Shown here piece after piece: positions 1,996-29,261 of a DNA stretch of 43,640 bases (positions within the stretch are counted from its first letter, which is position 1; each line of letters opens with the position of its first letter). The stretch comes from an uncultured Campylobacterales bacterium. GTDB lineage: Bacteria > Campylobacterota > Campylobacteria > Campylobacterales > CACVAW01. The notes beneath the pieces were generated by a model. The model worked only from the letters and a program-made list of their open reading frames with translations. It was not told the DNA's origin and searched no databases. Location of the stretch: positions 1 to 43,640 of the forward strand of contig CACVAW010000009.1 of the NCBI GenBank assembly GCA_902727925.1, read 5' to 3'. The translations under genes were made by a program, and so were the position numbers.

Positions 1996-2826
1996 TTATA
2001 TTAATAATCTTGAGATCATCTCTACATTCATCTTTGAAAAAGCAAAAACTTTATTACCCAAATCTTTTAGACTAGCCCCAATATGATAAAGTGAGTTATC
2101 ATCAATCAATAAGAATCTATCATGAAATTTATTTGAAGTTTTTACTTCTATTTTATTGGGATATTGAAGACTATATTTCTTTAAATCTAATTTTAATTGT
2201 TTGCTTATACTCTTAGTATATATATGAATTTTAGCTTTTTTGTTTTTTGAAAGTAGTATTAGAGTTGAATCATCTATATAGTTATCTATCAGCACTATTG
2301 ATTTGTTGGCACTTTTAATTATATCAGACGCAAACTTATAAGCTTCAAATATCTGACCATTGTAAAATACACCTTGTTTTATTTCTAAGGTATTTTCTTT
2401 TATATGAGATTTTATTAATTTTACATCATCTTCTAAAGATAGAATTCTTTGTTGTGTTAGTTTCTCATTGTTTATTACATAGTTATTTGTAATATATTTA
2501 TGTAAAACTGTTGTAGCCCATCTCCTAAACTTTGTAGCTTTTACTGAGTTTACTCTATATCCTACAGATATAATTATATCCAAGTTATAAAAATTGACTT
2601 TTCTTTTTTTACCATCTTTTGTAACCTGTTCCAAAATGGAACAAGTTAAGTTTTTATCAAGTTCTTTAGTTTTATAAATATTATTAATATGTTTTACAAT
2701 AGCAGGTCTATGTACATTAAAAATAGATGCAATATTAGTTGTAGTTAGCCATACTGTATCTTTATCTAAAGACATAGTAAGTTCTAATTCACCATCACTA
2801 TATACAACTAAATTTTCGTTTTGCAC
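1996..2826 (-). CDS. RhuM/KilA-N-like DNA-binding protein with C-terminal PLD-like (single HxD) domain
   Basis: N-term VWLTTTNIASIFNVHRPAIVKHINNIYKTKEL and YNLDIIISVGYRVNSVKATKFRRWAT are typical RhuM; C-term KFHDRFLLIDDNSLYHIGASLKDLGNKVFAFSKM is PLD-like. Confidence 0.82.
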   Translation of the reverse strand: MQNENLVVYSDGELELTMSLDKDTVWLTTTNIASIFNVHRPAIVKHINNIYKTKELDKNLTCSILEQVTKDGKKRKVNFYNLDIIISVGYRVNSVKATKFRRWATTVLHKYITNNYVINNEKLTQQRILSLEDDVKLIKSHIKENTLEIKQGVFYNGQIFEAYKFASDIIKSANKSIVLIDNYIDDSTLILLSKNKKAKIHIYTKSISKQLKLDLKKYSLQYPNKIEVKTSNKFHDRFLLIDDNSLYHIGASLKDLGNKVFAFSKMNVEMISRLLI

Positions 2827-9815: not shown

Positions 9816-10250
9816 ATGAAATTTTTTATCGGATGTGATCATGGTGGATATAGCGTAAAATCAAAAGTCATCCAAATACTCGAAAGTCTTGGAAATGAAG
9901 TAAAAGACCTTGGAACACACAGCAACCAAAGTGTAGACTATCCAGACTATGCACATAAAGTCTGTAAAAGTATACTAAGCACTCCAGGTTCAAACGGAAT
10001 ACTAATATGCGGAACGGGTATTGGTATGAGTATAACAGCAAATAGATACAAAGGTATCAGAGCAGCCCTTTGTACTGATAGCTACACAGCAAGTATTACA
10101 AAACAGCACAACAATTCAAATGTACTATGCTTTGGCCAAAGAGTTGTTGGGATGGGTGTAATTGAAGATATGCTAAGAGCTTGGTGTAAAAGTGAGTTTG
10201 AAGCTGGAAGGCATCAAGCAAGAGTTGAGAAGATAGAAAATATTACATAA
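9816..10250 (+). CDS. rpiB: ribose-5-phosphate isomerase B
   Basis: GCDHGGYSVKSKV and GILICGTGIGMSITANRYKGIRAALC motifs. Confidence 0.96.
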   Translation: MKFFIGCDHGGYSVKSKVIQILESLGNEVKDLGTHSNQSVDYPDYAHKVCKSILSTPGSNGILICGTGIGMSITANRYKGIRAALCTDSYTASITKQHNNSNVLCFGQRVVGMGVIEDMLRAWCKSEFEAGRHQARVEKIENIT

Positions 10251-10815: not shown

Positions 10816-11676
10816 ATGAGAGAAATTATAAAACTACTAAGACCACGTCAATATATAAAAAACTTATTTGTCTTAGCTCCCCTACTTTTTTCTTTTATGT
10901 TCACGCTACAAAGCGTTACGAGTTCTATTTTAGCCTTTGCCTTATTCTCACTCATAGCAAGTAGTATATATATCCTAAACGATATTATGGACGTAAATGA
11001 AGACCAAAACCACCCAGAAAAGAAGCACCGTCCACTTGTATCTGGGAAAGTGTCTATAAAAACTGCTAAAGCTATCTTTGTTTTTTTATCTACGGCAACT
11101 CTTATTATTACTTATTTTGTGAATATAGATTTATTCTTCGTAATACTCTTTTATTTTGTATTAAATATTCTTTATTCAATCAAGCTTAAACATATTTCTA
11201 TTTTAGATATTTCTATTATTGCAGTTGGGTTTGTTTTGAGACTTTATGCTGGTAGCGTTGTTATTGATTCAAGCTTATCTATTTGGATTATTCTAATGAC
11301 TTTTTTATTAGCACTGTTTTTAGCTCTTGGAAAAAGGCGTGATGATATATTACTTTCAGATATGAATCTAAAAACAAGAAAAAATATAGATGGATATAAT
11401 CTAGAATTTATAAATATTTCGATGATATTTATGGGTGCTGTTACTATTACTTCATATATACTCTATACAGTTTCATCAGAAGTAATAGTAGAATTAGGTA
11501 GTCAAAATTTATACTTAACATCATTTTTTGTAATTATTGGACTACTAAGATATCTACAAATCACATTTGTAGAACAAAAAAGTGGGAATCCAACACAAAT
11601 TCTATACCAAGACACCTTTTTAAAAACAACTCTTGCTCTTTGGATAATTAGCTTTATAATAATAGTAAACATATGA
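10816..11676 (+). CDS. UbiA-family prenyltransferase, decaprenyl-phosphate phosphoribosyltransferase (DPPR synthase) type
   Basis: LLRPRQYIKNLFVLAPL and NDIMDVNEDQNHPEKKHRPLVSGKVS, the NDxxDxxxDxxHPxKxxRP motif of DPPR synthases; polytopic. Confidence 0.92.
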   Translation: MREIIKLLRPRQYIKNLFVLAPLLFSFMFTLQSVTSSILAFALFSLIASSIYILNDIMDVNEDQNHPEKKHRPLVSGKVSIKTAKAIFVFLSTATLIITYFVNIDLFFVILFYFVLNILYSIKLKHISILDISIIAVGFVLRLYAGSVVIDSSLSIWIILMTFLLALFLALGKRRDDILLSDMNLKTRKNIDGYNLEFINISMIFMGAVTITSYILYTVSSEVIVELGSQNLYLTSFFVIIGLLRYLQITFVEQKSGNPTQILYQDTFLKTTLALWIISFIIIVNI

Positions 11677-12050
11677 TTTTTATTAAATATTCTATTTTCG
11701 CTATTATTTCTACTATTGTAAATTTAGCTTTTCAATACCTTAGCTTTTATTTTTATAGTGGCTGTCTGAGCTTATATATTGCTATATTTTGGGGTACACT
11801 TTTCGGTCTTATTGTCAAATATATTTTAGACAAAAATTTTATATTTTATGATACAAGTAAAAAACACAGTAAAAAATTCGCTCTTTATTCTATTATGGGA
11901 ATTTTAACAACTGCAATATTTTGCGGTACAGAAATAGCCTTTGATCATCTTTTTGATCTTAAATATACAGGCGCTGTAGTAGGTCTTAGTATTGGATATA
12001 TAATAAAATATTTTCTAGATAAAAAATATGTATTTGAGACTAAACAATGA
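11673..12050 (+). CDS. GtrA family membrane protein
   Basis: About 4 TM small protein; KYSIFAIISTIVNLAFQYLS, FGLIVKYILDKNFIF; 4-bp overlaps with both neighbours. Confidence 0.85.
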   Translation: MIFIKYSIFAIISTIVNLAFQYLSFYFYSGCLSLYIAIFWGTLFGLIVKYILDKNFIFYDTSKKHSKKFALYSIMGILTTAIFCGTEIAFDHLFDLKYTGAVVGLSIGYIIKYFLDKKYVFETKQ

Positions 12051-13333
12051 ATCTAAAAAGTTGGGGATTATATCCCAAAATTAAATCAAAAGTTTTTCCT
12101 CTAATTAATAAAACACAACTTAGTAAACTACTCTCATCAAACAAAGAATTTATACCCTACGGTAATGGTAAAAGCTATGGAGATAGTGCTTTAAATGAGA
12201 ATATAATACATACTAAAAAATATAACTTTTTTTTAAATTTCAATGAAGGCACTGGACTTCTTCATGTACAAAGTGGAGTGACACTAGATGAAGTTATAGA
12301 GGTATTTTTACCTCGTGGATGGTTTATAAAAATTACTCCTGGAACAAAACTAATCACTGTAGGTGGAGCGATATCAGCTGATATTCATGGTAAAAATCAC
12401 CATATCGATGGATGTTTTAGCCAGTCGGTAGAAGAGTTTACTTTAATGCTTGGTAATGGAGAAATTAAAACTATCAAAAAAAACGATGAGCTTTTTTATG
12501 CAACTTGTGGAGGTATGGGTTTAACAGGAGTTATACTAGACGCAAAAATATATCTAAAAAAAGTAAACTCAAAATATATAAACCAAACAACAATAAAAAC
12601 AAAAAACTTAAAACATACTTTTGAAGTTTTTGAAAAATATCAAGACCTACCCTACTCTGTAGCTTGGATAGATTGTCTCTCCCGTGATATTGGTAAAGCT
12701 ATTGTCATGGTTGGAGATTTTAGAGATGATAATAACCTTGATTATAAGAAAGATAAAAACCTAAATATACCTTTTATGTTTCCAACGTTTGTATTAAATA
12801 AATTTAGTGTAAAGCTCTTTAATTATTTGTATTATAAAAAAGCTCCTAAAAGAATAGAAGAAAAAAAAGTAAGTATTGATTCTTTCTTTTATCCACTTGA
12901 TAAAATAAACAATTGGAATAGAATATATGGTAAAAATGGTTTTACACAATATCAATTTATACTACCAAAAGAATCAAGTTTTCAAGGACTTCAAGAGATA
13001 CTAAGCAAGATCGCTAGTAGTGGTAAAGGATCTTTTTTAGCAGTATTAAAGCTTTATGGTAAGGAAAATAAAAACTACTTATCCTTTCCTATTGCTGGAT
13101 ATAGCTTAGCACTTGATTTTAAAATTGAAAAAGGAGTGTTTGAACTGCTTGATACTCTTGATGAAATTGTGTTAAAACACGGTGGAAGAATGTATCTAGC
13201 AAAAGATGCTAGAATGAGTAAAGAAACTTTGCATAAAAGCTATCCAAAAATAAAAGAATTTTTAAATATAAGAAAAAAATATAACTTAACAGATAAGTTT
13301 AACTCACTTCAATCAAAAAGGCTTGATATATGA
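12047..13333 (+). CDS. FAD-binding oxidase, DprE1-like decaprenylphosphoryl-beta-D-ribose 2-oxidase
   Basis: YGNGKSYGDSALN, TPGTKLITVGGAISADIHGKNHHIDG, GGMGLTGVI and C-terminal YLAKDARMSKE match DprE1. Confidence 0.92.
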   Translation: MNLKSWGLYPKIKSKVFPLINKTQLSKLLSSNKEFIPYGNGKSYGDSALNENIIHTKKYNFFLNFNEGTGLLHVQSGVTLDEVIEVFLPRGWFIKITPGTKLITVGGAISADIHGKNHHIDGCFSQSVEEFTLMLGNGEIKTIKKNDELFYATCGGMGLTGVILDAKIYLKKVNSKYINQTTIKTKNLKHTFEVFEKYQDLPYSVAWIDCLSRDIGKAIVMVGDFRDDNNLDYKKDKNLNIPFMFPTFVLNKFSVKLFNYLYYKKAPKRIEEKKVSIDSFFYPLDKINNWNRIYGKNGFTQYQFILPKESSFQGLQEILSKIASSGKGSFLAVLKLYGKENKNYLSFPIAGYSLALDFKIEKGVFELLDTLDEIVLKHGGRMYLAKDARMSKETLHKSYPKIKEFLNIRKKYNLTDKFNSLQSKRLDI

Positions 13334-14055
13334 TATTAATAATAGGTGCAAAAAGTGATATAGCAAAAAAGTGTGCTCATGAATATGCCAAAAATGGATA
13401 CAACCTAACACTTGCTAGTAGAGATATACTTGAGCTACAAGATTTTGCTTCAGATATAAAAATAAGACATAATATAAATGTAATACTAAAAGAATTTGAT
13501 ATAACCAAATTTGAGACTCATCAAGAGTTTTTTGAGAGTCTAGAAAAAAAACCATTTGGGACTATAGTAGTATCAGGATACATGAATGAACAAAGTATTT
13601 GTGAGAGTAACTTTAAAGAATCTCTTAAAACTATAAATACAAACTTCACAGGGGCTGTAAGTATACTTAATATTGTAGCAAAGCACTTAGAAACAAAAAA
13701 AGAAGGTTTTATAGCAGCAGTGAGCTCAGTTGCCGGAGATAGAGGAAGAGCATCAAACTACATCTATGGGAGTAGTAAAGCAGGACTAAGTGCGTACCTT
13801 TCAGGACTAAGAAACAGACTATATAAAAGTAATATCCAAGTACTCACAGTAAAGCCAGGTTTTGTAAATACAAAAATGACAGCACATTTAGATTTACCCA
13901 AAAAGCTAACAGCAAGCCCTAAAAAAGTAGCCTCAGATATATATAAAGCAGTAGAAAAAAATAAAAATATTTTATATACTAAATGGATTTGGAAGTACAT
14001 TATGTTTATAATCAAAAGCATTCCAGAAAGTATTTTTAAAAGGCTTAATTTATGA
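13330..14055 (+). CDS. SDR family oxidoreductase, DprE2-like decaprenylphosphoryl-2-keto-beta-D-erythro-pentose reductase
   Basis: GAKSDIAKKCAHEYAKNGYNLTLASRD nucleotide-binding motif; YIYGSSKAGLSAYLSGLRNRL active site; directly after DprE1 with ATGA overlap. Confidence 0.9.
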   Translation: MILIIGAKSDIAKKCAHEYAKNGYNLTLASRDILELQDFASDIKIRHNINVILKEFDITKFETHQEFFESLEKKPFGTIVVSGYMNEQSICESNFKESLKTINTNFTGAVSILNIVAKHLETKKEGFIAAVSSVAGDRGRASNYIYGSSKAGLSAYLSGLRNRLYKSNIQVLTVKPGFVNTKMTAHLDLPKKLTASPKKVASDIYKAVEKNKNILYTKWIWKYIMFIIKSIPESIFKRLNL

Positions 14056-14642
14056 AAGAAATAGCTTTTTTTGATTTTGATGGAACTATAACTAAAAAAG
14101 ATAGCTTTATTCAGTTTATTATCTTTAGTGTTGGGGTTTGGAGATTTCTATTAGGTTTTTTTATACTATTACCTATACTTATTTTATATAAAATAAAATT
14201 AATTTCAAACTATAAAGCAAAAGAGTATGTCCTAACATATTTTTTTAAGAATATGAGAATAGAAGATTTCGATAAAATATGTAAAAACTTCTCAGAACAA
14301 AAAATAGATAAAATGATAAGAGTAAAAGCTCTAAAAAAACTAAATTATTACAAAAACTTAGACTATGAAGTGGTAATAGTCTCAGCTTCTATTGAAAACT
14401 ATCTTATCCATTGGTGTGAAAAAAATAAATTAAAATTAATAGCTACAAGCATAGAAGTAAAAAACAATTTAATTACAGGAAAACTACTATCAAAAAACTG
14501 CTACGGAAAGGAAAAAGTTGTAAGAATAAAAAAACTTTATAACCTAGAAGACTTTCACAATATCTATGCTTACGGTGATAGTAGAGGAGATAGAGAGATG
14601 CTTCGTCTTACTAACCTCTCTTTTTATAAACCTTTTTTATAA
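14052..14642 (+). CDS. HAD-IB family phosphatase
   Basis: FFDFDGTITKKDSF, VIVSASIENYL and YAYGDSRGDREML motifs. Confidence 0.92.
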   Translation: MKEIAFFDFDGTITKKDSFIQFIIFSVGVWRFLLGFFILLPILILYKIKLISNYKAKEYVLTYFFKNMRIEDFDKICKNFSEQKIDKMIRVKALKKLNYYKNLDYEVVIVSASIENYLIHWCEKNKLKLIATSIEVKNNLITGKLLSKNCYGKEKVVRIKKLYNLEDFHNIYAYGDSRGDREMLRLTNLSFYKPFL

Positions 14643-14644
14643 TA

Positions 14645-14842
14645 TCTCTTGAAGAACATAAGAAACAAATAGCAATATTCTATCTTCCTCCTTATTCACC
14701 TGAATTTAATCCTGATGAGTATCTCAATCAAGATTATAAAAGAAATACCAATAAAAATAGTCTACCTTTCACTTTATCTCAGCTTAGAAAAAACACTTTA
14801 AATTATATGAATAGTCTTGTTAAAGATACTGATAATTTTTAA
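14645..14842 (+). pseudogene. C-terminal remnant of an IS630-family transposase
   Basis: No start codon; translation SLEEHKKQIAIFYLPPYSPEFNPDEYLNQDYKRNTNKNSLPFTLSQLRKNTLNYMNSLVKDTDNF* carries the IS630 DDE-type FYLPPYSPExNPDEYLNQD signature. Confidence 0.88.
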
Positions 14843-15025: not shown

Positions 15026-16642
15026 CTATTTATTCAATCTATAAATACTTGCTTCTTTAATATTTGGAAATATTTTATACATACTGCCATAATATTTTAT
15101 ACTATTAGATTTACCAACGCAATTTAAATCGAATATATAAAAATCTAGCCCTTTTATATCAGAACTAGTCTTGTCTTTTAAACTTACTTCACAACCTTTA
15201 TTTTTATAGTGTTCAAAAATTTTTTTATAACTTACTCCTAAACTCATAGCATGATAAGACTCATATTTATTTGTATAAGTATTTAAAAACTTATACTCTT
15301 TTTGTATTTTATTTGAAAAAACTTTATACTTGTCATACGCAAAAAAATCTGGTATTAAATATACACTATATCCATCTCTTAAGTATTGATTTAACTCTAC
15401 AAAAAAATCAAGTTCTTCTTTACTTCCTTTCTTTGCATCTACTGGGTGAGACTTACATTTAATACGAGTATAGTACTCTGCAAGTTTACAATTATCCATC
15501 CCAAGTAGTATTGATTTAGAAGAAGGAGTTTTAAAGTTAGTATAGAATTTTTCCACCAAATTTGAACTTGATCTATAATTCATTACAGGTAAGTTATTAA
15601 TAATTCGAAAAATAAAAATAACAGTTAGAAAAATAGACCATATAAATTTAGCATTTTTTTGAGGAATCAACTTGTTAAGAGCATAAACTATAAATACAAA
15701 CGATAAAAAACTAGGCCAAATAAAATTTCTATAAGTCATAACTGTATTGTTTGTGAGAAAAAAGCTTAAAAGTAAGAAGTTAACTAAAATGATTAAAAAC
15801 AGTAGTTTTTTTCTTTTATCTTTTTCAAAAAAATATACTAAAAATCCAAGAAATTGCAGAAAAAATAAAAATACCCCAATCCCTTTAATCCATAAGCTTT
15901 TACCTAAGTCAAACATCGCGAATCTAAACTGACCCATATATTGACTTTTACCTATATTCATAAGCTCTACAAAAAAGTTTTTATTCAATAAAGAAAGTAT
16001 TAATGCAATTACTACTATATAAATAAGAGAGTCTCTAAAAAGTGAAATTAAATGTTTTTTTTCAAAAATGTTATTTACTGTTAATTCTTTATTACTTTGG
16101 TACCAAAAAAGGAGTAGATAAAGAGGTATAAGAAATAAAACAGTCTCTTTACTCATCAAAGCTAATCCAAAAACAAACAAAGACAAAAATCTAATTTTAG
16201 AACTCTTTAAGGCAACAAAAAATGCGAGTAATACATAAAAAATTGCTATAAAGTCCTCTTTTAGATGTGAAATTGTAATCAAAGAAGCATCAAGACTCAA
16301 AACCAAAAATACTGAGGCCATACCTAAAAATTTATTTTTTGAAATATTTTTAATTATTAAATAATATAAAATAAAAGAGCAATAAGAAAGAGTAAGGGTA
16401 CATACTAATAATCCATATTTCCCAAAAATAAAATAAAAAGGAATCAAAGTTAAACTAATAATAGGTCTTCTTCCAAAATAAAAATTAAGTTCTCCGTCTG
16501 ACTGTAAATCTATCGAAGTATATAGATATAAAACGCTATCAAGGTGGTATGGTTCACTTAAACTAAACATTCCAATAAATATAAAAACTAAAAATAGTCC
16601 TATAAAAAATGCTAACTCTTGGTTTTTTCTTATAAAATTCAC
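15026..16642 (-). CDS. multi-TM GT-C-like glycosyltransferase candidate
   Basis: About 10 hydrophobic segments, N-terminal PYHLDSVLYLYTSIDL acidic loop after TM1, soluble C-terminal domain; 4-bp overlap with miaA. Confidence 0.65.
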   Translation of the reverse strand: MNFIRKNQELAFFIGLFLVFIFIGMFSLSEPYHLDSVLYLYTSIDLQSDGELNFYFGRRPIISLTLIPFYFIFGKYGLLVCTLTLSYCSFILYYLIIKNISKNKFLGMASVFLVLSLDASLITISHLKEDFIAIFYVLLAFFVALKSSKIRFLSLFVFGLALMSKETVLFLIPLYLLLFWYQSNKELTVNNIFEKKHLISLFRDSLIYIVVIALILSLLNKNFFVELMNIGKSQYMGQFRFAMFDLGKSLWIKGIGVFLFFLQFLGFLVYFFEKDKRKKLLFLIILVNFLLLSFFLTNNTVMTYRNFIWPSFLSFVFIVYALNKLIPQKNAKFIWSIFLTVIFIFRIINNLPVMNYRSSSNLVEKFYTNFKTPSSKSILLGMDNCKLAEYYTRIKCKSHPVDAKKGSKEELDFFVELNQYLRDGYSVYLIPDFFAYDKYKVFSNKIQKEYKFLNTYTNKYESYHAMSLGVSYKKIFEHYKNKGCEVSLKDKTSSDIKGLDFYIFDLNCVGKSNSIKYYGSMYKIFPNIKEASIYRLNK

Positions 16643-21901: not shown

Positions 21902-22546
21902 TTATTTAACTCCAAATAAGTTATAAAAAAATTCTTCATCTTCAAACCAAGGTTCACTAGAACTTAATGATTTTTCAATTTCACCAAAAGATTTACCTAT
22001 TAATTTAAAACTATTACAATCTACAAAATATTCGTCATTATTAACCTTGATTAGCAACAAATTTAGATCATAAAACTTACAAAACTTACGAACTAATTTT
22101 TTCGTAGGTTGTTTTTTGTTTGCTTCAATCCTAAAAATATCATTCAAAACAAACTGATATTGTGGGAATTTAGTTTTAACATAGCTCAAGAATTCATCAT
22201 TTTTAACTATTGGTAATACTCTTTTATAGCCATATTTTATTATTACTTTATCAGTAAGTCTAATATCTTGTTTGAGTTTAGGAAGCGCTTTATTTGTAAA
22301 GTTATTGTTATTTAGTTCTAATATCGTGATATTTTTATCTACGTTTAGGATATTAAGCTTTGATACAATGAGGTTTTGATTATTAACTTTACGTATAAGT
22401 ACACCTGAAGTTCCAATATCTGAGTTAGATGCATTAGTTTTTACATATATTTTATTATCTTTGATATCTATAATTTTAGATTCATATACATCATTTCCTA
22501 AACAAAACGAAAATAAAGAAAAAATCATAATTAAGCTTCTAAACAT
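21902..22546 (-). CDS. plasminogen-binding N-terminal domain (PgbA-like) secreted protein
   Basis: Signal peptide, YESKIIDIKDNKIYVKTNASNSDIGTSGVLIRKV pattern seen in Campylobacterota PgbA-like proteins. Confidence 0.6.
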   Translation of the reverse strand: MFRSLIMIFSLFSFCLGNDVYESKIIDIKDNKIYVKTNASNSDIGTSGVLIRKVNNQNLIVSKLNILNVDKNITILELNNNNFTNKALPKLKQDIRLTDKVIIKYGYKRVLPIVKNDEFLSYVKTKFPQYQFVLNDIFRIEANKKQPTKKLVRKFCKFYDLNLLLIKVNNDEYFVDCNSFKLIGKSFGEIEKSLSSSEPWFEDEEFFYNLFGVK

Positions 22547-25613: not shown

Positions 25614-27296
25614 ATGACAATCAACAAAAAATATTTTTTAATCTTACTCATATTAATAACTCTTATATCTTGTAGTCTAAACGAATCGGAGACTGAGGGC
25701 TACCTTAGCGGTCAAAAAGAAATTTTTTATCTGAACAGTGATCAAAGTAGTTCATTAACAGCAATACTAGCAAAATCAACTACTATAGATTTACCAACAT
25801 CTAAATTAAATAAAAGTGAATCAGAAATAAACCATACCCTTAGTGAAACTTTTGGAATATATGAAATTGATGATAACTCAACTGATGTAAACTACAGTAT
25901 AGATCTTGGTTCAGAAAACAAAAATGTATATTTCATATATACTAATAAAGATACAATCTCAACACTTCCAACAAGTACTAGTAATGCAAAACAAACTTTC
26001 AAGCAAGAGTCATTGACAAATATAAAAACTCTATCAAATAACTTTCAAGCTAAACATTTTGAAAGTAATTTCACAAGACCAAAACTCACAAAATCTACTA
26101 AAATGTTCAAAAACAATAATGAACTAGTAGATAATAACCAGTTCAAACTAAACATTTGGGTTGATGAAAATGCTTATGGTGCAGAATGCAATGATGGTAA
26201 ATGTATTACTGAAGAAATTATAGAGTTTTTTAGTAATGTATTCTTAAAAGATGGAAATAATAACGATATTTATGACTATGTTACAAATATCTATGGAGAG
26301 GAATGGGGCACACACTCTTATATAGATTTGATAGAAGATACCAATACTATTGATATCTTACTTTTTGATATAGATAATGATGGAACTCCTTCACAAACGG
26401 GTGGAGTCTTAGGATACTACTTCTCAAAAGACAATTTTACTAGAGATGCTGTCTCTGGTTCAAATGAAAAAATAATGTTTTATATTGATTCATATCTTCT
26501 AGCTAATTCAAGTAATAGCGACGGTGTGGATGACGGTGTATGGGAAGAAAGTGACTTTTTTCCTCAAGTTATGGTATCTACTCTTGCACATGAATTTCAA
26601 CATATGATCCATTTCTACCAAAAAAATGTTGCAAGAGGTATAACTACTCGAACAGATACTTGGATAAACGAGATGATGTCTGAAATGACAGAAGATTTAG
26701 TTGCTTTTAATATAAACAATCCTGGACCAAGAAATATACTTGGAGATGGTAGTGCTGGAAATTCAGATAATATAGATGGAAGAATACCTGTATTTAATAA
26801 GTTTTCTCAGGATTCCCTTACTGTTTGGGGCAATTCATATATAGATTACAGTACAGTATACTCTTTTGGATCATTTTTACTTAGAAATTATGGTGGAGCA
26901 AGCTTACTACATACTATGATGCAAAATAACTTAACAGATGAACAAATAGTTACGGCAAGTCTAGGAAATTCAAAAACACTAGAACAACTTATCCAAGACT
27001 GGCAAACAAGTGTTGTACTATCAAAACATACAAATGCTCCTTCTGGATATATCTACAATACAGGTGACTGGATAAACTCTACATATAATGGTGTTACTTA
27101 TAAATTAGGATCAATAAACTTCTTTAACTATAATCCAACACTTAACCTAAACCAAACTCATACTACACAAATACATTCAAGTACTATAGTTCAAGTTGCA
27201 AATGACAAAAATGGTACTTTTGAAACTAATATAACAAAAGATGCTAATACTATGATAAAGGTTGTAGTAGAACCTGTAATAGAAGATAATATCTGA
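25614..27296 (+). CDS. lipoprotein zinc metallopeptidase with HEFQH motif (M30/hyicolysin-like)
   Basis: Lipobox LISC; STLAHEFQHMIHFYQK (HEXXH at 26589-26603); WINEMMSEMTED as candidate third-ligand segment. Confidence 0.82.
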   Translation: MTINKKYFLILLILITLISCSLNESETEGYLSGQKEIFYLNSDQSSSLTAILAKSTTIDLPTSKLNKSESEINHTLSETFGIYEIDDNSTDVNYSIDLGSENKNVYFIYTNKDTISTLPTSTSNAKQTFKQESLTNIKTLSNNFQAKHFESNFTRPKLTKSTKMFKNNNELVDNNQFKLNIWVDENAYGAECNDGKCITEEIIEFFSNVFLKDGNNNDIYDYVTNIYGEEWGTHSYIDLIEDTNTIDILLFDIDNDGTPSQTGGVLGYYFSKDNFTRDAVSGSNEKIMFYIDSYLLANSSNSDGVDDGVWEESDFFPQVMVSTLAHEFQHMIHFYQKNVARGITTRTDTWINEMMSEMTEDLVAFNINNPGPRNILGDGSAGNSDNIDGRIPVFNKFSQDSLTVWGNSYIDYSTVYSFGSFLLRNYGGASLLHTMMQNNLTDEQIVTASLGNSKTLEQLIQDWQTSVVLSKHTNAPSGYIYNTGDWINSTYNGVTYKLGSINFFNYNPTLNLNQTHTTQIHSSTIVQVANDKNGTFETNITKDANTMIKVVVEPVIEDNI

Positions 27297-27380: not shown

Positions 27381-29261
27381 ATGCATAGTGTCTATGTTTT
27401 AGTAATAATGATATTTTTAGGTTGTGAAAGTATTGAGTCTACTTCATCCACAAATCAAGCTCCCATAGGTATTAACGACCACGTTACAATAGAAGCAAAC
27501 ACAACAAATAAACAAATCTTTGTTCTAAACAATGACTATAGTGAAAATACACTATCTATATCAAGTCTAACTCAACCAACAAATGGATCAGCAAATATAA
27601 GTGCTACAAATATACTTTATACTCCAACTTCAGGGTTTACAGGAAGTGATAGCTTTACTTATAGACCTTTTGACGGTAGTCTACTTGGAAACATCACCAC
27701 TGTAAATATAATTGTAAGTTCATCATCAACGTCAATAGCTATAACACATTCAGTAAACTCAACTTATGGTCTGTTTAAAGTTAACACTGATAGTGTTACG
27801 AATATAGACTACACTCTAAACCTAGGTGGATTTTCAAAAGATATCTTCTTTGCTTATACAAATAAAGAAAATGTGATATCAGCTCCAAGTACTTCAAAAG
27901 TCTTAGAAAAAATCAGTACTCAAAAAAAGTCACTTACTAAAAAACCACAAGTAAAACATTTTAAAAATAATTTAGTTCTACCTAAATTTACAAAAGTACA
28001 AGGCTATCAAGAAAAAATCACTCCATCATATAATACAGTAGGTGATTCTTTAAAATTTTCAATTAACTCAGAAGATAGAACTAATACTATTGATTCTAGA
28101 CTAAAAAAAAGTGTAACAGTACATGGTATTACTCTTAATATTTGGGTAGATAATAATGCTTATGGTAGCGGGTGTAATGAAGTTGATTGTATTACAGACA
28201 CTATGATAGATTACTTAAGCGATAGCTTTTTGATACCTGGAAATAATAACGATATATATGAGCTTGTCACTAATATTTATGGTATAGAGTGGGGAGCAAC
28301 ATCCTTTGGTAATTTAATAACAGATACCAATACTATAGATATTTTACTTTTTGATATTAATGGTGACAATGCAACAGATACTAGTGGAGGAGTTTTAGGA
28401 TATTACTTTGCAAAAGACAACTACTTAACAAGTAGTTTACCTGGTTCAAATGAAAAAATCATGTTTTATATAGATTCAAATTTCTTTGCCAGTACATTAA
28501 ACTCGGATCTTTTAACCGATGATGAAGTCTGGTCCATTGATGATTATTGGCCACCAATAATCATATCTACACTTGCTCATGAATTCCAACATATGATTCA
28601 CTTCTATCAAAAAACTGTACTTAGGGGCCTTACAAGTACTGATACTTGGATTAATGAGATGTTATCTGAACTAACAGAAGATATCATAGCCTGGAATATA
28701 AACAATCCAGGACCAAGAGGTAATATTTCCCTTGATGCTGGTACTCCTGGAAACAGTAATGGAAGACTACCAAGTTTTAATAGTACTCCAACAGATAATG
28801 CAATCTCAAACTGGACAAATTCATCACTTAACTATAGTACTGTATACTCATTTGGTGCATACTTAATAAGAACTTATGGTGGTCCATCACTACTTAACGC
28901 TATGCTTCACAATAACTTTACAGACGAACAAGCTATAACTTCTGCTGTAGGTAATGGAAAATCATTTAATACTTTACTCCAAGACTGGGCGATGAGTATT
29001 CTTCTATCTGATAAAACAAATGCACCTGAAGGCTATAAATTCAATGTAAATGATACATCTTTTGAATATAACTATAATGGTGTTGATTATAAACTAGGTT
29101 CGATAAACTTCTTTAACTACTCACCTACCCCAAACTTAAATGATATAACGGGTAAAAAGTATTCAATAAGCTTTAAACAAATTGCAAGTGAAGAAACAGG
29201 AAGTTACCAAACTAGCATATCTAAAGATGAAGATACCACTATAGGAATAATCGCAAAATAG
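27381..29261 (+). CDS. paralogous lipoprotein HEFQH metallopeptidase with N-terminal Ig/cadherin-like domain
   Basis: Lipobox FLGC; VLNNDYSENTLSISSLTQPTNGSANI...YTPTSGFTGSDSFTYRPFDG domain; STLAHEFQHMIHFYQK (HEXXH at 28578-28592); extensive match to the upstream ORF. Confidence 0.83.
   Translation: MHSVYVLVIMIFLGCESIESTSSTNQAPIGINDHVTIEANTTNKQIFVLNNDYSENTLSISSLTQPTNGSANISATNILYTPTSGFTGSDSFTYRPFDGSLLGNITTVNIIVSSSSTSIAITHSVNSTYGLFKVNTDSVTNIDYTLNLGGFSKDIFFAYTNKENVISAPSTSKVLEKISTQKKSLTKKPQVKHFKNNLVLPKFTKVQGYQEKITPSYNTVGDSLKFSINSEDRTNTIDSRLKKSVTVHGITLNIWVDNNAYGSGCNEVDCITDTMIDYLSDSFLIPGNNNDIYELVTNIYGIEWGATSFGNLITDTNTIDILLFDINGDNATDTSGGVLGYYFAKDNYLTSSLPGSNEKIMFYIDSNFFASTLNSDLLTDDEVWSIDDYWPPIIISTLAHEFQHMIHFYQKTVLRGLTSTDTWINEMLSELTEDIIAWNINNPGPRGNISLDAGTPGNSNGRLPSFNSTPTDNAISNWTNSSLNYSTVYSFGAYLIRTYGGPSLLNAMLHNNFTDEQAITSAVGNGKSFNTLLQDWAMSILLSDKTNAPEGYKFNVNDTSFEYNYNGVDYKLGSINFFNYSPTPNLNDITGKKYSISFKQIASEETGSYQTSISKDEDTTIGIIAK

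Follow-up and report, generated by a model that had tools for sequence, protein, structure and literature searches.

The 43,640-nucleotide contig analysed here (the window, which is the entire contig C9 of an uncultured Campylobacterales bacterium; genome 1.50 Mb, 69 contigs, 99.2% complete) carries a cassette of five genes at positions 10816-14642 which, judging from its sequence, very likely encodes a pathway to undecaprenyl-phospho-D-arabinofuranose as donor for a periplasmic GT-C transferase. All five genes lie on the plus strand, with a 4-base overlap of stop and start at each junction. They encode a predicted polyprenyl-phosphate phosphoribosyltransferase of the UbiA superfamily (DPPR synthase or PPPRS, Rv3806c type; 10816-11676, 286 aa), a small membrane protein of the GtrA family as putative flippase or accessory protein for a lipid-linked pentose (11673-12050, 125 aa), a predicted DprE1-like, FAD-dependent polyprenyl-phospho-ribose 2'-oxidase (12047-13333, 428 aa), a DprE2-like short-chain dehydrogenase/reductase (SDR) as predicted polyprenyl-phospho-2-keto-pentose reductase (13330-14055, 241 aa) and a HAD-IB phosphatase, proposed to remove the 5-phosphate of polyprenyl-phospho-ribose-5-phosphate (14052-14642, 196 aa). 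Hidden Markov models (HMMs) of Pfam and NCBIfam named the five open reading frames (ORFs) UbiA, GtrA, FAD_binding_4/DprE1, SDR and HAD-IB, in agreement with an earlier sequence-only reading, which had listed these genes on one strand at exactly these coordinates and whose motifs NDIMDVNEDQNHPEKKHRP, DIHGKNHH and YLAKDARMS were all found. Its core proposal of a D-arabinofuranose lipid-donor cassette appears to stand with regard to protein families, active sites and recurrence. In this pathway UbiA would transfer 5-phosphoribose from phosphoribosyl pyrophosphate (PRPP) onto undecaprenyl phosphate and the HAD protein would take off the 5-phosphate, after which the DprE1-like oxidase and the DprE2-like reductase would invert C2 to give undecaprenyl-phospho-D-arabinofuranose; GtrA may assist the donor to the periplasmic side, on which arabinofuranose would be attached to a surface glycan by a GT-C transferase.

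The UbiA protein narrowly passed NF008977 ('decaprenyl-phosphate phosphoribosyltransferase') with 235.7 bits (cut-off 234) and scored at most 34 bits against the named 4-hydroxybenzoate and heme O synthase models. Its best relative of solved structure is Rv3806c (PDB 8j8j, E 5.5e-33), other UbiA structures being matched at 1e-4. For Rv3806c from M. tuberculosis the contacts to PRPP and Mg are R22, K28, Y70, N73, D77, K87, R90, Q135, Y138, K143, Y157 and K208 (PMC10994848), and 10 of these 12 residues are identical in the cassette protein (R9, K15, Y52, N55, D59, K69, R72, Y120, K125 and K189 in its own numbering). Q135 is Asn here and in every cassette homologue aligned, and Y157 is Phe, likewise in some mycobacteria. 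The genome encodes two further UbiA proteins of quinone/heme type, which have none of R22, K28, Y70, K87 and K208 and so miss both the 5-phosphate contacts (K28/Y70) and the beta-phosphate contacts (R22/K87). When a tree was calculated, the cassette proteins grouped with Rv3806c, apart from these two paralogues, with support of 100/99 and long branches. A quinone or heme prenyltransferase with incidental neighbours, for which membership in the UbiA superfamily could be cited, is therefore exceedingly improbable and was rejected at the sequence level on the basis of HMM scores and tree; these roles are probably filled by the two paralogues devoid of the phosphoribose contacts.

The DprE1-like protein matched the structures PDB 4aut and 4fdn with E 5e-78 to 4e-75 (394 residues spanned at E 5e-78), which identifies the oxidase as a DprE1 relative, not as one clustering outside DprE1. 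Alignment to M. smegmatis DprE1 revealed that the presumed active-site residues Y60, H132, K134, W230, Q334, Q336, K367 and K418 (M. tuberculosis numbering) are all kept. Cys387 is replaced by Ala355 in the window protein, and all 7 Campylobacterota sequences aligned have Ala at this position. As this cysteine is the benzothiazinone anchor and dispensable for activity (PMC6128881), insensitivity to covalent benzothiazinones is predicted, and the Ala355 enzyme could be a useful control for these compounds. The SDR is best described by PRK07102 (350 bits, cut-off 267), shows the Y-GSS-K catalytic pair and follows DprE1 immediately, as it does in most of the roughly 90 loci that were examined. 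GtrA exceeded the cut-offs of NF037976 (136 bits, cut-off 50) and PF04138, and its gene keeps this place between those of UbiA and DprE1 in almost every relative from Campylobacterota.

The HAD protein passed TIGR01490 (105.4 bits, cut-off 98.3) with the motifs DFDGT, VSAS and YGDSRGD. Among the loci around DprE1 relatives, a stand-alone HAD gene was found nearby in 40 of 65 loci with a short UbiA and in 0 of 15 loci whose UbiA carries an N-terminal extension of about 190 residues, remotely homologous to HAD (hhalign 97.8%, E 8e-13). Five HAD-less loci (L054, L059, L063, L067 and L076, two from Pseudomonas and one from Glaciecola among them) have a DUF212 'divergent PAP2' gene at the HAD position, and DUF212/PAP2 never occurred together with HAD in the loci examined; 20 short-UbiA loci, some of which end at contig ends, show neither. 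Because stand-alone HAD, fused HAD and DUF212/PAP2 are mutually exclusive, the simplest reading would be one phosphatase slot with three solutions, in which the DUF212 protein could be a DPPR phosphatase corresponding to Rv3807c, itself presumably of PAP2 type. Rv3807c is reportedly a phosphatase unrelated to HAD proteins, and removal of the phosphate from the lipid product has been attributed to the fused HAD domain of Citrobacter ORF15 (PMC11127046). The role as DPPR phosphatase that the sequence-only reading had given to the HAD protein thus appears to gain independent support, both from the exclusive replacement and from the Citrobacter domain, and leads to the testable prediction that HAD proteins take the place of Rv3807c.

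DprE1 relatives were detected in 14 of 299 Campylobacterota genomes (10 of 59 genera), and a scan of species genomes gave at least 578 candidate loci from many phyla. Since the order UbiA-GtrA-DprE1-DprE2-HAD is kept in the Campylobacterota relatives, the cassette is not a chance grouping. In the DprE1 tree Campylobacterota sequences are intermingled with those of Thermodesulfobacteriota and others, which fits transfer; metagenome binning errors may contribute. A placement of the host with the Arcobacteraceae, as assumed earlier, found no support, no other genome of the host's family having been retrieved though the order's other families were well sampled. Two relatives carry toxin-antitoxin-like pairs (RelBE-, HEPN/MNT- and MazEF-like, named by eye) inside the cassette (L014:396-3165 and L016:9475-10054), and at locus L013 DprE1 and DprE2 are separated by two other ORFs (526 and 248 aa).

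GT-C genes, some of them AftB-like, stand beside most cassettes of relatives, a finding beyond the sequence-only reading. A large polytopic membrane protein is encoded in or directly beside the cassette at 16 of 23 Campylobacterota loci, and such genes account for 18 of 49 neighbouring genes compared to 5 of 187 farther off (Fisher p 4.5e-10, a generous value since the loci are related). In some relatives PMT_2 proteins are found between DprE2 and HAD. The profile of a second cassette-linked GT-C family (Aliarcobacter, Sulfurimonas, a Campylobacteraceae bin, Pseudomonas and others; for example L044:3776-5635, L045:4871-6718 and L050:2099-3688, all on the plus strand) matches mycobacterial AftB with E 3.2e-28, and one Sulfurimonas member alone does so with E 3.9e-6. 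AlphaFold prediction of the relatives' GT-C from seven sequences led to a confidence (pLDDT) of 46, and the Foldseek matches of this model (ALG12, ArnT and Emb among others, none with E <= 0.001) were not relied on, in contrast to the sequence-profile match to AftB.

In the window, the cassette is followed by a gene for an orphan polytopic membrane protein of 538 aa with 11 predicted transmembrane segments and a GT-C-like layout (15026-16642, minus strand), which we infer to be the first candidate for the transferase and thus a possible pentofuranosyltransferase. It resembles a putative glycosyltransferase family only faintly (20 bits at a cut-off of 200, E 2.3e-4) and passed the cut-off of no family model, no relative was found in 299 Campylobacterota genomes, and a single-sequence AlphaFold model (pLDDT 44) was not used for fold search. 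It is conceivable, if rather doubtful, that the D-arabinofuranose donor cassette stays constant as it moves between Campylobacterota while the GT-C gene that goes with it is swapped, the whole acting as a switch of surface antigens, and that the 538-aa orphan is the arabinofuranosyltransferase of an undescribed GT-C family. A little short of an even chance is given to the explanation that the donor is made as proposed and the transferase is encoded elsewhere, for example by a GT-C-like gene of the polysaccharide cluster on contig C61 (see below), the 538-aa gene coding for an unrelated membrane protein or one using another donor. This would agree with its convergent orientation behind an IS630 remnant, its orphan status in the phylum and its low GC content (24%, the cassette having 27-29%), as well as with several large polytopic proteins encoded on C61, one of them in a GtrA / GT-C / GT2 trio. 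However, relatives show a strong enrichment of large polytopic genes immediately next to the cassette, and no large C61 protein resembles the cassette-linked GT-Cs, the sole match being a 398-aa protein from outside the cluster to a neighbour at L034 other than its PMT_2 gene.

Between the HAD gene and the GT-C-like gene lies a remnant of an IS630-family transposase gene comprising its last 66 codons (14642-14842, plus strand; PF13358 DDE_3, E 2.7e-10), which begins on the final base of the HAD stop codon. Neither the remnant nor the GT-C-like neighbour had been mentioned in the sequence-only reading. Full-length copies (345 aa) are present in the same genome on contigs C26 (99% DNA identity) and C68 (81%). 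As the remnant abuts the HAD stop codon and an intact 99% copy exists on C26, the 3' border of the cassette has undergone a recent rearrangement, perhaps with loss or exchange of an operonic transferase. That the insertion took out the original transferase and left a decaying cassette with its donor out of use is nevertheless unlikely: the operonic GT-C of several relatives is indeed missing at the corresponding place, but none of the five reading frames is damaged, the C-terminus of HAD agrees with that of relatives and the active-site residues are kept.

A number of points weigh against the assignment as arabinofuranose donor pathway. The DprE1-like protein reached 397.5 bits with NF053785 and the SDR 170.9 bits with the DprE2 model NF053786, below the equivalog cut-offs of 500 and 250, respectively, and for this reason we use the names DprE1-like and DprE2-like. 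The cassette is bordered by the IS630 remnant on its 3' side, the GT-C-like protein encoded downstream is not significantly similar to the GT-C proteins of relatives, and a search of the window's genome, run without positive control, detected no member of the AftB-like family. The literature search gave no paper on arabinofuranose or its lipid donor in Campylobacterota, and to our knowledge neither has been detected there. With regard to the scores, the DprE1 cut-off of 500 was reached by 0 of 299 Campylobacterota genomes, and it looks tuned to Actinobacteria since five homologues from two Pseudomonas species, Ancylobacter, Chitinophaga and an Aliarcobacter bin fall short as well (384-439 bits). 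The low scores could also reflect a pair working on another lipid-linked or free sugar, with ribofuranose or another pentofuranose epimer as product, and the Citrobacter O2 xylofuranose donor is made by a single SDR (PMC11127046). We regard this as improbable, because the DprE1 active-site residues are kept, most loci show the pair in direct linkage with a DPPR synthase and DprE1/E2 homologues have been reported for arabinofuranose-containing glycans, whereas an unrelated epimerase serves xylofuranose (Kelly et al., 2024; PMC11127046).

With respect to the acceptor of the presumed arabinofuranose, the flagellin suggested in the sequence-only reading is unlikely, as a search of the 99.2%-complete genome yielded no flagellin gene. 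A pilin might serve, since pilin-like N-termini and three secretion/pilus ATPases are present, and a motif search for pilin genes beside the cassettes found none. On contig C61 (about 8131-50149, approximately 40 kb) a large surface-polysaccharide cluster was identified that encodes nucleotide-sugar enzymes, glycosyltransferases and a protein of Wzy/WaaL type. Some relatives have their cassettes within or beside polysaccharide genes, with a sugar transferase, UDP-GlcNAc 2-epimerase and polysaccharide-biosynthesis dehydratase at L035 and glycosyltransferases at L044 and L016. A surface polysaccharide of O-antigen type would therefore be the likeliest acceptor and a pilin a less likely one, and a search for outer-membrane beta-barrels gave no useful lead. 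The trio of GtrA, polytopic protein and GT2 at C61 18046-20773 is probably a separate lipid-donor glycosylation system.

As the remainder of the window consists mainly of housekeeping genes, the cassette is an accessory island, flanked by rlmH on one side and by the GT-C-like gene and then a miaA-like gene (named by eye) on the other. Upstream, beyond rlmH, rpiB for ribose-5-phosphate isomerase B (9816-10250, plus strand) may supply ribose-5-phosphate for PRPP, its proximity to the cassette being perhaps coincidental. Other genes of the window encode a RhuM-family protein (1996-2826, minus strand), a protein matching the N-terminal domain family of the Helicobacter plasminogen-binding protein PgbA (21902-22546, minus strand) and two neighbouring Peptidase M30-like proteins (25614-27296 and 27381-29261, plus strand), of which the second carries a bacterial Ig (Big_9) domain at its N-terminus.

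Compared to the mycobacterial decaprenyl-phospho-arabinose pathway (Rv3806c, Rv3807c, DprE1 Rv3790, DprE2 Rv3791 and GtrA-like Rv3789), whose arabinose lipid goes into the cell wall of tuberculosis bacteria, DPPR synthase, DprE1, DprE2 and the GtrA-like protein are common to both, with conserved PRPP-site and oxidase active-site residues. Differences are a HAD phosphatase here and the PAP2-type Rv3807c there, a lipid that is presumably undecaprenyl, the union of all five genes in one overlapping operon, the exchange of DprE1 Cys387 to Ala, and that no Emb/Aft arabinan machinery was found beside the window cassette. The three-component pentofuranose systems of Citrobacter youngae O1/O2 likewise comprise PPPRS, HAD phosphatase, epimerase and flippase and feed a periplasmic GT-C (PMC11127046), as the window cassette is proposed to do, but their HAD domain is fused and their flippase is a MATE protein, whereas in the window HAD is separate, the putative flippase is GtrA and the GT-C candidate has no assignment to GT136 or any family. 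The D-arabinofuranose pilin system of P. paraeruginosa (PSPA7_6245-6251 with TfpW; PMC12369383) combines donor genes including UbiA with a GT-C transferase, as proposed here; its phosphatase belongs to another family (PMC11127046), two Pseudomonas loci of the present survey carry DUF212/PAP2, and no pilin gene lies beside the window cassette. The loci of Aliarcobacter, Sulfurimonas and others with cassette-linked, AftB-like GT-C genes have the same donor cassette and a DprE1 63-70% identical to that of the window, and are set apart from the window's genome by this GT-C with a profile match to AftB.

A pentofuranose pathway outside mycobacteria has been described as widespread, with DprE1/E2 homologues in arabinofuranose-containing systems and, in Citrobacter, an undecaprenyl-phospho-ribofuranose pathway extended to arabinofuranose and xylofuranose (Kelly et al., 2024; PMC11127046), and the D-arabinofuranose pilin genes of P. 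paraeruginosa are an older precedent (PMC12369383). Because the pathway is already known in other Gram-negative bacteria, the cassette very probably represents a new host and not a new kind of system. Nevertheless, with this cassette the arabinofuranose donor pathway of mycobacterial type reaches Campylobacterota, where it is patchily distributed as an accessory trait and for which no earlier report was present in the literature searched. Further additions of the present analysis are a phosphatase position open to replacement, the association of the cassette with GT-C genes, among them AftB-like ones, and the scar left by IS630. The overlapping five-gene operon is well suited for reconstitution, and the sequence-diverse GT-C candidates, AftB-like ones included, may provide new arabinosyltransferase specificities.

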